From: Planctomycetota bacterium
Lineage (GTDB): Bacteria > Planctomycetota > UBA11346
Direction: 5' to 3'
Assembly: GCA_024641365.1 (NCBI GenBank)
Contig: JAHEDF010000023.1
Coordinates: 1 to 17,698 of the forward strand
Length of the DNA stretch: 17,698 nucleotides
In this document: in pieces, positions 2,416 through 13,102 of the stretch
How positions within the stretch are numbered: position 1 is the stretch's first letter
How the letters are laid out: the number at the start of each line of letters is the position of its first letter
Position numbers and translations under genes: made by a program
The notes under the pieces: generated by a model
Databases searched by the model: none
What the model saw: only the letters and a program-made list of their open reading frames with translations
What the model was told of the DNA's origin: nothing

Positions 2416-3273
2416 ATGAGCACCATCGCTAACGATCATTTATCAGTGCCTGATACCGCCATTTCGACCTTCGAAAAAGCACATGATGTCTTGATTACGG
2501 TGCATGATTTTTCCGGGCGCATTAATAGGCGCTTACAAATTAATCGTCACGCCCATCGCCACCCCCTCTGCCAAGTTGCCAAAGCACGCGATAATAATCG
2601 CGCGTGTATGGAATTTGATTCTGTGGGTCTTCACGCCGCTGCACCGCTCCACCCGAATGGCTTAATTCAACGGTGCCACGCAGGCTTGGTCGAGGCAATC
2701 GTTCCTGTACGTGTGGCTGAAAAAGTAGTCGCCATTCTTTATGCGGGACCACGCATCATTACAGATCCGTCATTTGCCTTTCAACGATCTCGACAACAAG
2801 TGCCTGATTTACCAATTCCCCAAATAATGGAATGGAGCGAAGACCAAGCCTATGCGCTCTTAGAATTATTGCGTCAATTAGGAGCGCGCTTAGAGCAATG
2901 GTTACAAACTGTTGGCATTGATCCTAACGCCGCCGCTATGGATCGGCGCAGTCAAATTTTACATATTATTGCAAATAATGCTCATCAGGAAATCTCGCTG
3001 TCAATATTGGCAAAACATTTAAAATTATCGACTCACCGCACAAGCCACGTGGTACGAGAAGAATTTGGCATGACTTATTTAGATTTAGTCAATCAATTTC
3101 GTTTGGAACGTGCGGCCTCATTATTAACCCACAGCAACATGGCTATTAGTGATATTGCTCTGAGTAGCGGTTTTGGCGATGTGTCGACCTTTCACCGTAA
3201 ATTTCGCGAGCATTATTTAATGACACCCCGTCAATTTCGCATTCGTGAGTCAGAGCAGCGCAATAAAAATTAA
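2416..3273 (+). CDS. AraC-family transcriptional regulator with PocR sensory domain (paralogue 1)
   Basis: This 285-residue regulator has an N-terminal PocR-type sensory domain (about residues 15-165) and a C-terminal AraC double helix-turn-helix (about 178-275). The PocR signature is visible as HPLCQVAKA (49-57), RACMEFD (62-68) and QRCHAGLVEAIVPV (85-98), with cysteines 52, 64 and 87. The DNA-binding part shows ISLSILAKHLKLS for the first helix pair and SDIALSSGFGDVSTFHRKFR for the second, ending in the family's MTPRQFR. The founding PocR controls propanediol and cobalamin genes in Salmonella; PocR domains are thought to bind small organic molecules, and the ligand here is unknown. It is divergent from the LarA-like gene and 197 bases upstream of the DUF1549/DUF1553 cassette, so either could be its target. 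It is clearly paralogous to the regulator at 8710-9624. No Shine-Dalgarno is visible before the ATG. Confidence 0.88.
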   Translation: MSTIANDHLSVPDTAISTFEKAHDVLITVHDFSGRINRRLQINRHAHRHPLCQVAKARDNNRACMEFDSVGLHAAAPLHPNGLIQRCHAGLVEAIVPVRVAEKVVAILYAGPRIITDPSFAFQRSRQQVPDLPIPQIMEWSEDQAYALLELLRQLGARLEQWLQTVGIDPNAAAMDRRSQILHIIANNAHQEISLSILAKHLKLSTHRTSHVVREEFGMTYLDLVNQFRLERAASLLTHSNMAISDIALSSGFGDVSTFHRKFREHYLMTPRQFRIRESEQRNKN

Positions 3274-8709: not shown

Positions 8710-9624
8710 GTGAGTGAGGTAGATACTTGTAATAATTTCACTCAAAAGCCCTCTTTCGCCATAAAGACAACGCAACACGATACCGCCGTGACCGATCCAT
8801 TTTCGATTCCAGAATTAGCGATTTCGACATTTGAAGGTGTCCACGATGTACTAATCACCATTCATGATTTTAGTGGTCGCATTCGTCAACGTTTACAGAT
8901 TAATCGTTCATTTCATCGTCATCCCCTGTGCCATGCAGCTAAAGCACACGATAGTGAACGTGCCTGTCTCTCTTTTGACCTTGTTGCCTTACATGCCATT
9001 GCGCCTTTGCACCCTCATGGTTTTTTACAGCGTTGTCATGCCGGATTAGTCGAAGCCGTTGTGCCAGTTCGACTAAAAGGCGAGGTCATGGCTATATTAA
9101 ATGCTGGCCCACGCACCATTAGCGATGAAAATATTTCATTTCTACGTTCACAATTATTATCGCCACAAATTCCTGCTCCCAGTTTACCCGTGTGGTCACA
9201 TGATGAAGCACAAAATGTTTTAGAATCATTACGACAATTAGCAGCTCGCCTAGAAAGATGGTTGGACAATAGCGAAAACTATAAAGGTACGCATAGTAGC
9301 GATCGCCGTTCGCAAATATTACATATTATTTCTCATCAGGCACCGCGTGGTGTTACCTTACCGCTATTGGCAAAACGATTAGGGTTAAGTGTCGATCGCA
9401 CTGGCCATGTCGTACGTGAAGAATTTGGCATCACCTTTTTGGAATTAGTTAATCAACATCGCCTGGAACGTGCGGCGGCATTACTGAAGCACAGCGATTT
9501 GTCGATTAGTGCCATTGCCCTCAACAGCGGTTTTGGGGACGTATCGACATTTCATCGGCGCTTTCGTGCGCAATTTGCCATGACCCCGCGGGAGTACCGA
9601 CAGCGGAATCCGCCACACAAGTAG
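8710..9624 (+). CDS. AraC-family transcriptional regulator with PocR sensory domain (paralogue 2)
   Basis: This protein has the same architecture as the regulator at 2416-3273: a PocR sensory domain with HPLCHAAKA, RACLSFD and QRCHAGLVEAVVPV, so the three cysteines are kept, then an AraC double helix-turn-helix with LPLLAKRLGLS and SAIALNSGFGDVSTFHRRFR. Counted by eye, about two thirds of the last hundred residues are identical to paralogue 1; the sensory halves also align throughout, with most change near residues about 140-165. The frame can start at GTG 8710 (304 residues), but a second in-frame GTG at 8788 gives an N-terminus (MTDPFSIPELAIS) matching the length of paralogue 1, so the true start is uncertain. 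No strong Shine-Dalgarno marks either. It sits 47 bases after the ThuA-like gene and 68 bases before the FAD oxidoreductase, making both plausible targets. The ligand is unknown. Confidence 0.88.
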   Translation: MSEVDTCNNFTQKPSFAIKTTQHDTAVTDPFSIPELAISTFEGVHDVLITIHDFSGRIRQRLQINRSFHRHPLCHAAKAHDSERACLSFDLVALHAIAPLHPHGFLQRCHAGLVEAVVPVRLKGEVMAILNAGPRTISDENISFLRSQLLSPQIPAPSLPVWSHDEAQNVLESLRQLAARLERWLDNSENYKGTHSSDRRSQILHIISHQAPRGVTLPLLAKRLGLSVDRTGHVVREEFGITFLELVNQHRLERAAALLKHSDLSISAIALNSGFGDVSTFHRRFRAQFAMTPREYRQRNPPHK

Positions 9625-9692: not shown

Positions 9693-11348
9693 ATGGCACA
9701 TACTATCAAAACATCCCTAACCGTCAGCATGTTAGCATGTTTACCTCTTTTAGCCCAGGCAGCGGATTATGATGTCGTCGTTTACGGTGGCACCTCGGCG
9801 GGTGTCATTGCTGCGGTACAAGCAAAGAAAATGGGTAAGTCAGTTATTATTGTTGGTCCTGATAAACATTTAGGCGGCTTATCGAGTGGTGGATTAGGAT
9901 GGACCGATACCGGAAAAAAAGAAGTTATTGGCGGTTTGTCACGCGATTTTTATCACCGCATTTGGAAACATTACGACGATGAAGGTGGATGGAAATGGCA
10001 GAAAAAATCTGAATACGGCAATAAAGGACAAGGCAATAGCGCAATTGATGGCGAACAACGTACCATGTGGATATTTGAGCCACACGCAGCAGAAAAAGTT
10101 TTTGAAAGTTATATTAAAGATTTTGACATTCAGGTCGATCGCGACGAATGGCTTAATCGTGACAATGGTATAAAAAAAGACGGGACACGCATTGTCAGTA
10201 TAACGATGCTCAGTGGAAAAACCTACAATGGGAAAATGTTTATAGATGCGACCTATGAAGGTGATTTATTAGCAACTGCTGGTGTTGAATATACGGTTGG
10301 TCGTGAAGCGGTGTCACAATATGATGAATCATTTAATGGTGTTCAAACCGGTGTATTACATCATTCCCATCATTTTGGAAAATTGAAAATAAGTCCGTAT
10401 CTTATTCCTGACGATCCCGCCAGTGGTGTATTGCCACTTATTAACCCAGATCATCCAGGTGAAAAAAGTGCTGCTGATAAAAAAGTTCAAGCCTATTGTT
10501 TTCGCATGTGTTTGACTGATGTTGAAGAAAATCGCATCCCATTTAGTAAACCGGACGGCTACGATCCAAAACAGTACGAATTACTGGCACGACTATTTGC
10601 TGTTGGTTGGAAACAAGTATTTAATAAATTTGACCCCATCCCAAATCACAAAACAGATACTAACAATCATGGGCCATTTAGCTCTGATAATATTGGAAAA
10701 AATTACGATTACCCGGAAGCGAGTTACGAACGACGTCGCGAAATAATTAAAGAACATGAAACTTATCAAAAAGGGTGGTTGTATTTCATCTGCACCGATC
10801 CTCGTGTTCCCAAAGATGTGCAAGATAAAATGAATACCTGGGGCTTACCTAAAGATGAATTCACCGATAACGGCGGATGGTCGCACCAACTCTATATTCG
10901 TGAAGCGCGACGTATGGTTGGGAATTATGTCATGACTCAAAATGAATTAACGAAGAAAAAACCAACACCAGAATCGGTCGGTATGGGCTCATACACGATG
11001 GATTCCCATAACACGCAGCGCTATATTACCCCAGAAGGCTTTGTGCAAAATGAAGGAGATATTGGCGTACACCTCAAAGAACCCTACGAAATCGCTTATG
11101 GCTCACTCGTACCCAAAAAGGAACAGGTCACCAATTTATTAGTTCCTGTTGCTGTTAGCGCGTCCCACATTGCCTACGGCAGTATTCGTATGGAACCTGT
11201 CTTTATGATATTAGGACAAAGCGCAGCAACTGCCGCCTGTCTTGCAATTGATAGTACTCTTGCTGTACAAGATGTACCGTATGAGCAATTGCGGACACGC
11301 TTACTAGCAGATGGTCAAATATTAGAAAAACCCACCATATCAAAATAA
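9693..11348 (+). CDS. Secreted FAD-dependent oxidoreductase (FAD_oxidored family)
   Basis: This 551-residue protein starts with a signal peptide ending at LAQA (cleavage near 23/24), followed at once by a dinucleotide-binding fold, YDVVVYGGTSAGVIAAVQA (26-44), and the family block HLGGLSSGGLGWTD (59-72). A later DATYEGDLLATAGVEYTVGRE contains the conserved Asp/Glu segment of the family, and the C-terminal HIAYGSIRMEPVFMILGQSAA is the usual closing FAD/substrate region. Related proteins are abundant in PVC bacteria and are often called xanthan-lyase-like; they are thought to oxidise carbohydrates, but the substrate is not established. It lacks the golvesin-like C-terminal module that often follows this domain in relatives; a similar module instead sits in the DUF1549/DUF1553 protein nearby. 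GGAG seven bases before the ATG fixes the start. It lies 68 bases after a PocR-AraC gene, and a long palindrome follows its stop. Confidence 0.9.
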   Translation: MAHTIKTSLTVSMLACLPLLAQAADYDVVVYGGTSAGVIAAVQAKKMGKSVIIVGPDKHLGGLSSGGLGWTDTGKKEVIGGLSRDFYHRIWKHYDDEGGWKWQKKSEYGNKGQGNSAIDGEQRTMWIFEPHAAEKVFESYIKDFDIQVDRDEWLNRDNGIKKDGTRIVSITMLSGKTYNGKMFIDATYEGDLLATAGVEYTVGREAVSQYDESFNGVQTGVLHHSHHFGKLKISPYLIPDDPASGVLPLINPDHPGEKSAADKKVQAYCFRMCLTDVEENRIPFSKPDGYDPKQYELLARLFAVGWKQVFNKFDPIPNHKTDTNNHGPFSSDNIGKNYDYPEASYERRREIIKEHETYQKGWLYFICTDPRVPKDVQDKMNTWGLPKDEFTDNGGWSHQLYIREARRMVGNYVMTQNELTKKKPTPESVGMGSYTMDSHNTQRYITPEGFVQNEGDIGVHLKEPYEIAYGSLVPKKEQVTNLLVPVAVSASHIAYGSIRMEPVFMILGQSAATAACLAIDSTLAVQDVPYEQLRTRLLADGQILEKPTISK

Positions 11349-11731
11349 TACCTACAGCGATTTCAAAGATTTTCACTTGGCACAATTATTGTTTGTTTTT
11401 CACAAGAGAAACGCAGGGACGGAGAAGAAATTGGTTTTATTCATACCAATTCCGGTTCACTATATCCTAAATAATAAGACACTTACATGAAGGACCGGAG
11501 AAACGGAGAAATGCCAAGGTGGAAATCCTGTGGTTATTGAAAAAAGCACAGCTTTCCTCTTCGGTTCTCTGGTTCTCCATGTTAATCTGTTGCCATTACG
11601 GATGATTTGAGGCGGAATTAGTATCAGAACATTATCTAGGTGAATGTCCTCCGTTTCTCTGTTCCTCCTGATTAAATATTTTTTGCGCTGCATTGCCACT
11701 TGAATTGGCTGAAGCACAGTTTGCGGTGAAT
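11349..11731. other. Gene-free region between convergent genes
   Basis: I see no convincing gene in these 383 bases. Small open frames here only reflect purine-rich repeat tracts and lack ribosome sites or recognisable protein features. Most of the stretch is taken up by the nested palindrome described separately. It lies between the 3' ends of the FAD oxidoreductase and the tetraheme cytochrome. Confidence 0.7.
11405..11660. repeat. Long nested imperfect palindrome (large hairpin) with GAGAAACGGAG-type repeats
   Basis: Four pairs of inverted segments are nested around a centre near 11537. AGAGAAACGCAGGGAC (11405-11420) pairs with 11646-11660. ATACCAATTCCG (11443-11454) pairs with CGGAATTAGTAT (11613-11624) with one mismatch. 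A 25-base segment at 11485-11509 starting ACATG pairs with 11558-11582 at 20 of 25 positions. GGAAATCCTGTG (11521-11532) pairs with CACAGCTTTCC (11547-11557), leaving a 14-base loop. Both arms repeat GAGAA/CGGAGA motifs, reminiscent of the CAGAGAA-type tracts common in intergenic DNA of environmental bacteria. It has no long T-run on either side, so it is not a classical terminator, though it could end or stabilise both convergent transcripts. A non-autonomous mobile repeat (MITE-like) or a structured RNA are alternatives. Confidence 0.8.
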
Positions 11732-13102
11732 TTATTTACCGTGCTTAATTTGCTGCCAATACGTTTGGTAGTTAAATTTTGGACTGTTTTCTTCGTCATG
11801 ACATTGCATGCAGGTGGCAACGCCAACAGGTCGCATCGGTTGTTGCTGGCCCCCTGCTGCGACGTGCGCTGCACCTGGGCCATGACACGATTCGCACGAT
11901 ACCTGCGCGTGATTGGGTGGTGAAACGCGCCGTTGAAATCCATCGCTGTATCCGAGACCTGTCACGTGACAGCGAAGGCAATCTGGATCGTGTTGATAAC
12001 CACGTTTTTCTAACGAGGCGAACGCATGGGCATGTTTACTTGCTCCATGTACTTGCGCTGCTTGCGCATGACACGTTATACACGCTGCATCGCCAACAAA
12101 CCCACCGGTCCGTGTCGATTTATCACTGTCTAAATCAATTGTTCCAAGGTGTTTTTGGTAATTACTTACAATACCACGAATGTCTGGACTGTCAGGTAAC
12201 ATGTCATGAATTAAATCAAAGTGACAGGCATCTGACCCCCATCGCCAATAACCAATAGTTTTTCCATGATTGGCAACATGCACAACGCGCACAGCACCAA
12301 CCGAAAGCGGCGTTTGCGATGGCGACGTAACAGCGCCACCAACAATGAGCGACACGCTTGGCAAGGCACCTGCAAGAGTCTGCAATTCTTCTTCTGACAT
12401 ATCTGCCATGACTACCACTTTCCGACCCTGTGCCACAGCTGCGACCTTGGTTATGGCATCAACCGGATCTACGATTTGCAAACCATCCCCGTGCGCCGTA
12501 CGCGGTACCACTGACGTCACAATAAACACTTCACCACCTGCTGTAATTTCAGCAAAAGTTTTTACGTCAGTTTTATTATCATCAAATCGCACATTCGCAC
12601 TCACCAGTGGTGGTACTTCAGTTAAAAGTAATGATTTTAAAATTGTTGCCCCTAATGCCACTTCCGAGGTGCCGACACCAATTACATCAATGCCTGCGTT
12701 TGCCAGGGCGCGCACATAAAAATTACCGCGTATGTGCAAATGCTCAGCTTTTCCCGCAGTCCATCCGCCGAGTTCCAATGACAACTGACGTTCGTTCGGT
12801 ATACGGCTCAATAAACCAGCACGACGAACGAGTCCGCCATACATGCCTGCGGTACAACCACACGGTTCAAAACGAGCAGCGGTGTGTGCCGACCACGCAA
12901 CTATCGGATCATGTCCTTTAAAAACCGCTTCGGGCAATTGTGGTAATAAAGATAATAGTGGATTAGCCACTCGTTCTTGTGGACTTTCTAAGGTGACTTC
13001 TGTTTTGATCGGTGACTGTTCATTTCTTTTTAAGAGAATGACACCAATAACCAATGCAATCATTACACATGCCAGACCAGCTAAACCAAATTTTAATCGC
13101 AT
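11732..13102 (-). CDS. Tetraheme cytochrome c with degenerate metallophosphatase-like N-terminal domain
   Basis: This 456-residue membrane-anchored protein has one N-terminal hydrophobic segment (residues 5-24), so the rest should be periplasmic. Residues about 65-300 resemble the UshA/5'-nucleotidase metallophosphatase fold, including the EPCGCTAGMYGGLVRRAGLL block (79-98), but the usual metal ligands look lost: DxH, GD and GNHE positions read AWSAH, LGGW and GVGTSE. The C-terminal part (about 335-456) is a cytochrome-c554-like module with four CxxCH sites at 341-345, 375-379, 403-407 and 431-435, plus conserved KHAHAF and a tail SPKFNYQTYWQQIKHG. This architecture occurs in PVC and deltaproteobacterial genomes; electron transfer is a safe role, but partners are unknown. 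It begins nine bases after the DUF4159 gene, clearly in one operon, and ends facing the long palindrome. Confidence 0.88.
   Translation of the reverse strand: MRLKFGLAGLACVMIALVIGVILLKRNEQSPIKTEVTLESPQERVANPLLSLLPQLPEAVFKGHDPIVAWSAHTAARFEPCGCTAGMYGGLVRRAGLLSRIPNERQLSLELGGWTAGKAEHLHIRGNFYVRALANAGIDVIGVGTSEVALGATILKSLLLTEVPPLVSANVRFDDNKTDVKTFAEITAGGEVFIVTSVVPRTAHGDGLQIVDPVDAITKVAAVAQGRKVVVMADMSEEELQTLAGALPSVSLIVGGAVTSPSQTPLSVGAVRVVHVANHGKTIGYWRWGSDACHFDLIHDMLPDSPDIRGIVSNYQKHLGTIDLDSDKSTRTGGFVGDAACITCHAQAAQVHGASKHAHAFASLEKRGYQHDPDCLRCHVTGLGYSDGFQRRVSPPNHAQVSCESCHGPGAAHVAAGGQQQPMRPVGVATCMQCHDEENSPKFNYQTYWQQIKHGK

Follow-up and report, generated by a model that had tools for sequence, protein, structure and literature searches.

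The window analysed here is the whole of a 17,698-nucleotide (nt) stretch of a Planctomycetota bacterium (assembly GCA_024641365.1, contig JAHEDF010000023.1), and our subject is a long imperfect palindrome that occupies much of a 383-nt gap between two convergent genes. An initial annotation of the sequence had recognised this palindrome and its convergent setting, placing it at 11405-11660; when its left half was aligned to the reverse complement of the right half, it was found to reach somewhat beyond those limits, with 11398-11514 pairing with 11551-11676. The features of the locus are as follows.

9693..11348, forward strand: flanking gene for an FAD-dependent oxidoreductase (PF12831); its 3′ end lies about 50 nt ahead of the left arm
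11394..11427, forward strand: outer element, left arm, family A; position weight matrix (PWM) score 20.7, the second A score of the window
11398..11676, no strand assigned: the whole nested palindrome, from the arm-to-arm alignment; fold z scores of −5.25 (forward strand) and −5.50 (reverse strand) for 11405-11660
11443..11454, forward strand: weak middle pair, left half (ATACCAATTCCG); score 9.5, equalled in 32 of 2000 shuffles
11477..11511, forward strand: inner element, left arm, family C; PWM score 35.8, the top C score of the window
11556..11590, reverse strand: inner element, right arm, family C; PWM score 31.8, the second C score of the window
11613..11624, reverse strand: weak middle pair, right half; score 9.5, equalled in 32 of 2000 shuffles
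11645..11679, reverse strand: outer element, right arm, family A; PWM score 32.7, the top A score of the window
11732..13102, reverse strand: flanking, convergent gene for a cytochrome c554-like/UshA-like (multihaem) protein

A chance origin of the palindrome is ruled out by the fold z scores on both strands and by the arm scores against Markov sequences: none of 200 shuffled controls per strand was as stable as 11405-11660, and the A and C matrices, built from 42 and 39 arms, respectively, gave maxima of only 0.2 (A) and −2.5 (C) over 20 Markov sequences. Since the four arms hold the two best A scores and the two best C scores in the entire 17.7 kb, they form an outer A pair and an inner C pair, and the palindrome is composed of two different repeats, a family C hairpin being nested at the centre of a family A hairpin. 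The outer arms match G004:C24:1067-1098 (left arm, blastn identity 88%) and G004:C24:1131-1160 (right arm, 94%, E 2.8e-5), which are the two arms of one element in the relative G004. The first description, of four inverted pairs sharing a centre near 11537 and closing on a 14-base loop, stands in part: the outer arms are centred on 11537 and the inner arms on 11534, while the middle pair (about 11533) is marginal by itself and corresponds to no repeat family among the collected loci, and the innermost loop measures 8 nt in the minimum-energy fold of the forward strand. The GAGAA and CGGAGA motifs reported from both arms proved to be the tandem 8-nt units of which the two families are made.

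In family A the arm reads (GAT)TGAACARGAGGAAC GGAGRAAC GGAG, with a short form TTGAACAAGAGGAAC-GGAGRAAC-GGAG, and in family C it reads TGACATGGAGGACC GGAGAACC GGAG, with a short form GACATGGAGGACC-GGAGAACC-GGAG. The further copies that a mobile unit would be expected to leave were found in numbers in relatives and nowhere else in the window, which was all of the host DNA searched. The nearest named relative, Planctomycetota bacterium MGR_bin356 (L001; hereafter G001), has 52% identity across the cytochrome gene adjacent to the palindrome, and its genome yielded 70 blastn matches to the palindrome at E <= 10, each to a short stretch only. The collected loci contain 57 distinct copies: both A arms are present in 27, both C arms in 29, and a single C arm was recognised in the last one. 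Both families are dispersed in G001, G004 and G005. One C arm in G001 (L019:1373-1523) has grown to nine overlapping unit-pair matches against two in its partner, a sign of slippage. Matches to the palindrome at E <= 0.1, some of them weak, occur in 7 of the 23 genomes of G001's order. Because the A pattern is present in only 3 of 392 sampled genomes of the phylum, and the exact C arm, with 33 occurrences, in G001 alone of 59 genomes, the two families are lineage-specific and multi-copy. No relatives of the gap were found on plasmids at the DNA level, nor any IMG/VR contig with the A pattern. Nesting is not confined to the window, as locus L029, read by eye, is nested as well, with C outermost, M-like ends (see below) in the middle and A innermost.

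A structured RNA or a bidirectional transcription terminator maintained by selection (the initial annotation named a structured RNA and a bidirectional transcript end) would agree with the strong folding of both strands and with the convergent genes on either side; the substitutions do not speak for it. Mismatches among the 119 aligned pairs of the palindrome comprise 10 G-T and 8 A-C, so that the wobble bias is absent, the covariation term is −0.38 with any double change in 4 of 25 pairs, and at columns 14 and 18, where the inner part of the arm varies most, the changes seen across 23 A copies preserve pairing in 8 cells and destroy it in 7. With no G-T excess, and with about as many pairs broken as kept, repeated DNA units fit better than a selected RNA fold. 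The window palindrome has no Rfam match above the curated threshold, and among the 42 of 58 copies (window included) with callable neighbours 22 lie between tandem, 15 between convergent and 5 between divergent genes; 15 copies were set aside for overlap with a called long open reading frame (ORF), an overlap owed in part to permissive start assignment. Against a G001 background of 120 tandem, 57 convergent and 59 divergent neighbour pairs, the enrichment between convergent genes is weak. We therefore regard an RNA or terminator function as improbable, although a bidirectional transcript end may arise as a side effect of the palindrome.

A longer form of family A was found in G005 (C801), where a gene between rtcB and rtcA is enclosed by arms of the kind seen in the short copies. 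This gene is a clear member of the GxxExxY family (TIGR04256/PF13366, PD-(D/E)XK fold), and the ends of the A hairpins are thus common to a longer, gene-bearing element; beside it, L068:1018-1280 is a tandem duplication that takes in an arm and the beginning of rtcA. Kinship to GxxExxY elements is therefore demonstrated for A by common ends, and for C it is suggested by likeness of build alone. Other genomes present similar combinations: G001 has one GxxExxY gene with (CCACAGAGG)n arms and, elsewhere, a gene-less hairpin of the same units, and in G126 a search with the arm from a single GxxExxY gene gave 32 matches, some of which form gene-less pairs. The palindrome in the window possesses inverted tandem-unit arms with no GxxExxY gene between them, and can for that reason be no more than a gene-less relative.

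The bracketing of GxxExxY genes was surveyed at 103 loci, made up of 97 from genomes of G001's phylum, where the searches list more matches than were used, and 6 of 7 plasmid matches; flanks were long enough in 101, and since the loci are related the counts are not independent events. Measured from the estimated gene ends, inverted repeats reach a score of 20 around 36 of 101 GxxExxY genes and around 1 of 94 other ORFs from the same loci. Since arms often run into the beginning of the reading frame, the flanks were also extended 45 nt inside each gene end, which raised these numbers to 62 of 101 and 3 of 94, and, at a score of at least 14, to 87 of 101 and 4 of 94, whereas GxxExxY flanks paired between different loci attain 14 in 211 of 2020 cases. 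A period of 8, 9 or 10 fits best in 68 of the 77 arms scoring at least 16; identity at the best-fitting period is 0.48, as compared with 0.40 in shuffled sequences, so that by this measure the periodicity is modest. Overall, the enclosure of GxxExxY genes by inverted arms looks general.

The family itself is widespread: 178 of the 392 Planctomycetota genomes sampled have it, as do plasmids from five other phyla. Of two plasmid copies (L217, L218), one separates fabD from fabG in a Sphingomonas plasmid, and the other follows radA in a Bacteroides plasmid and has arms of the CACAGAGG type. In IMG/VR it occurs at two loci, both with inverted arms, at scores of 23.5 and 26.0 that have no control. 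Sequence comparison with solved structures gave a sole match at E 0.26, Foldseek returned no match at E <= 0.001, and PADLOC yielded weak Cas4 matches only (E 0.0075-0.046). We know of no role for GxxExxY genes.

Two gene junctions were followed through the order of G001. The lpd gene was matched in 20 of 23 genomes, with a sucB-like gene near the best match in each, and a GxxExxY gene lies between the two in 5 of the 20. Among the 15 without it, G017 contains a gene-less tandem-unit hairpin, G019 another palindrome, and G014 and G015 several hundred other bases. Similarly, rtcB was found in 12 genomes, with GxxExxY ahead of rtcA in three, short gaps (7, 33 and 64 nt) in three, and either other DNA or no rtcA beside rtcB in the remaining six. 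Both occupied and empty junctions therefore exist. Within each of eight junction elements the two arms match each other (scores 24.5-39.5), while between genomes they mostly do not, the exception being G001 and G005 at sucB-lpd (25.0-30.0), and we read these elements as old, with arms that turn over together. A GxxExxY tree, whose columns are too few for a firm answer, requires two changes to account for the five sucB-lpd copies, which may nonetheless have a single origin. Neighbours are callable at 84 of the 103 GxxExxY loci and run in the same direction at 58, where the orientation of the gene agrees with theirs in 51 (p 2.4e-9), so that GxxExxY is probably read together with the host operon.

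The same observations can be accommodated by a homing-like parasite, in which the GxxExxY nuclease cuts the empty junction, repair copies the element in, and the arms safeguard expression of the operon that it interrupts. Occupation of one junction in several genomes and the shared direction of the gene and its neighbours would be in keeping with such a cycle, but the dispersed gene-less hairpins at unrelated sites are left unexplained, and we consider it distinctly unlikely.

Some of the copies in G001 reside within MITEs (miniature inverted-repeat transposable elements, which are non-autonomous transposon derivatives) of two other kinds. The first (L018, L019, L032, L037 and others) has ends GAAGCTGTCT..AGACAGCTTC, here called T, with 3-bp TNA duplications and a C hairpin as its core; a candidate owner would be of the IS5/IS1031 type. 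At up to two mismatches, 47 T ends were found in G001, and a full-length transposon with such ends was rejected, as they occur only as pairs about 130-200 nt apart or singly. The 3-nt flanks of T-enclosed C copies are identical in 16 of 21 rows and in none at shifts of 1-5; three of the rows pair an end that also figures in another row, and one (L170) comes from another genome. The second kind (L023, L119, L126, L145) has ends CAATGGCGTTTAGCTAAG, here called M, and 10-bp duplications; all five M elements found enclose a tandem-unit hairpin, of varying type, and the 10-nt flanking duplications, read by eye, are in exact register in four and one base out in the fifth.

T and M carriers thus account for some of the dispersal of A and C, and the hairpins might be passengers altogether, as cargo of these MITEs, with GxxExxY genes likewise cargo in palindromes and their nuclease moving nothing. 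This is possible, given that both carrier families do convey some hairpins along with clean duplications; yet neither T nor M ends occur within 75 nt of 23 of the 27 A copies and 8 of the 29 C copies, the window has neither, and at none of the 103 loci is the GxxExxY gene flanked on both sides by such ends (up to one mismatch) within 300 nt. We judge this account unlikely overall, although it is the strongest of the competing ones.

Many-copy palindromic repeats of another type, the repetitive extragenic palindromic (REP) sequences with their composites BIME (bacterial interspersed mosaic element) and REPIN (REP doublet forming a hairpin), are moved by REP-associated tyrosine (Y1) transposases (RAYTs), and are described as 20-40 bp long, with a GTAG/CGTC tag, and as known from Planctomycetes (PMC3733652). 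The A and C repeats share with them the palindromic form and the copy number, but compared with that description they are larger, have no such tag and are not beside Y1 transposases at the loci examined. Y1_Tnp genes are present in all five relatives searched, with 10 of the 18 matches in G001, but none of the six Y1 loci examined out of these 18 has paired A or C arms, one (L284) showing two weak right-arm-like matches, and of 114 arms 6 have GTAG or CGTC immediately next to them on the outside, against 14 after shuffling. An origin of the palindrome through RAYT is accordingly very improbable. At two Y1 genes (L285, L281) other palindromes form long inverted repeats on either side, an arrangement to be expected of RAYT/REP pairs.

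We favour, with a probability of about 0.72, the interpretation that the palindrome in the window is an old, decayed, nested pair of gene-less MITE-like hairpin elements, kin to elements that bear a GxxExxY gene; the nest is probably inert now. The suggestion of a decayed duplicated or mobile, MITE-like unit was therefore largely right, with two nested families in place of one. The A and C copies resemble MITEs in being short, palindromic, gene-less, multi-copy and mostly intergenic, with terminal inverted repeats and, for A, a longer gene-bearing form of the same ends. They differ in that their arms are tandem 8-11 nt units, that a clear target duplication is missing at A, and that the gene-bearing form carries a PD-(D/E)XK-fold protein and no DDE transposase. 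Rpn/YhgA-like proteins also belong to the PD-(D/E)XK fold class. These nuclease-fold proteins, of a different family (PF04754), are linked to RecA-independent transfer in the accessible part of PMC5350276, where such arms go unmentioned.

Several observations weigh against our interpretation. T ends enclose 15 of the 29 C copies and M ends 3 of the 27 A copies, which means that other transposases move part of them. The short flanking duplications anticipated for a mobile element are clear for the T and M MITEs enclosing some G001 copies and not for A: at 20 A copies with both ends placed, the 4-nt flanks are identical in none at offsets 0, 1 and 3-6, and at offset 2 in four, among them the G005 copy L117, whose group has flanks in common, so that the A hairpins have no clear target duplication. 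For the gene-less hairpins neither excision nor an empty site was shown, C arms surround no gene in the collected loci, and 14 of 101 GxxExxY genes have no arms at a score of 14. Further, identity is 54-65% for 10 of the 13 cross-genome GxxExxY pairs at one junction (46-47% for the other three, all with G012), compared with 49% (G005) and 48% (G022) for the genes at the two junctions of one genome, which suggests old copies kept in place and argues against recent hopping.

As to mechanism, the hairpin arms would be the ends of a larger element with the GxxExxY gene between them, and the gene-less hairpins its short MITE-like relatives. The nuclease may take the arms as hairpin or cruciform DNA, cut them, and then copy or move them, and the centre of an existing palindrome would be a favoured landing place, giving rise to concentric nests; this preference is based on few nests, which also tells against it. 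More tentatively, and with the odds against us, we suggest that GxxExxY genes with inverted tandem-unit arms form a widespread, undescribed class of mobile elements with many gene-less hairpins of its own, in which a PD-(D/E)XK nuclease acts on hairpin or cruciform DNA, insertion takes place at operon junctions and palindrome centres, and the arms are kept alike by copying one from the other. In the literature searched, which lay mostly outside subscription journals, we found neither the arms nor any connection between them and GxxExxY described.

The surroundings of the palindrome may be mentioned briefly. Its cytochrome c554-like/UshA-like neighbour has relatives at E <= 1e-30 in 7 of the 23 genomes of the order. 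Farther away, the window encodes a nickel pincer cofactor-dependent isomerase of group 22 (1054-2322; NF052515, above the cut-off), and two PocR-domain AraC-type regulators (2416-3273 and 8710-9624) flank a PSD1/DUF1501/ThuA-like cluster.

If the arms are the substrate of GxxExxY proteins, a huge orphan family would gain a function that can be tested, and many unexplained intergenic hairpins in bacteria would have a source. The arms themselves, as inverted repeats that change fast and yet stay matched, provide a direct test bed for palindrome repair.
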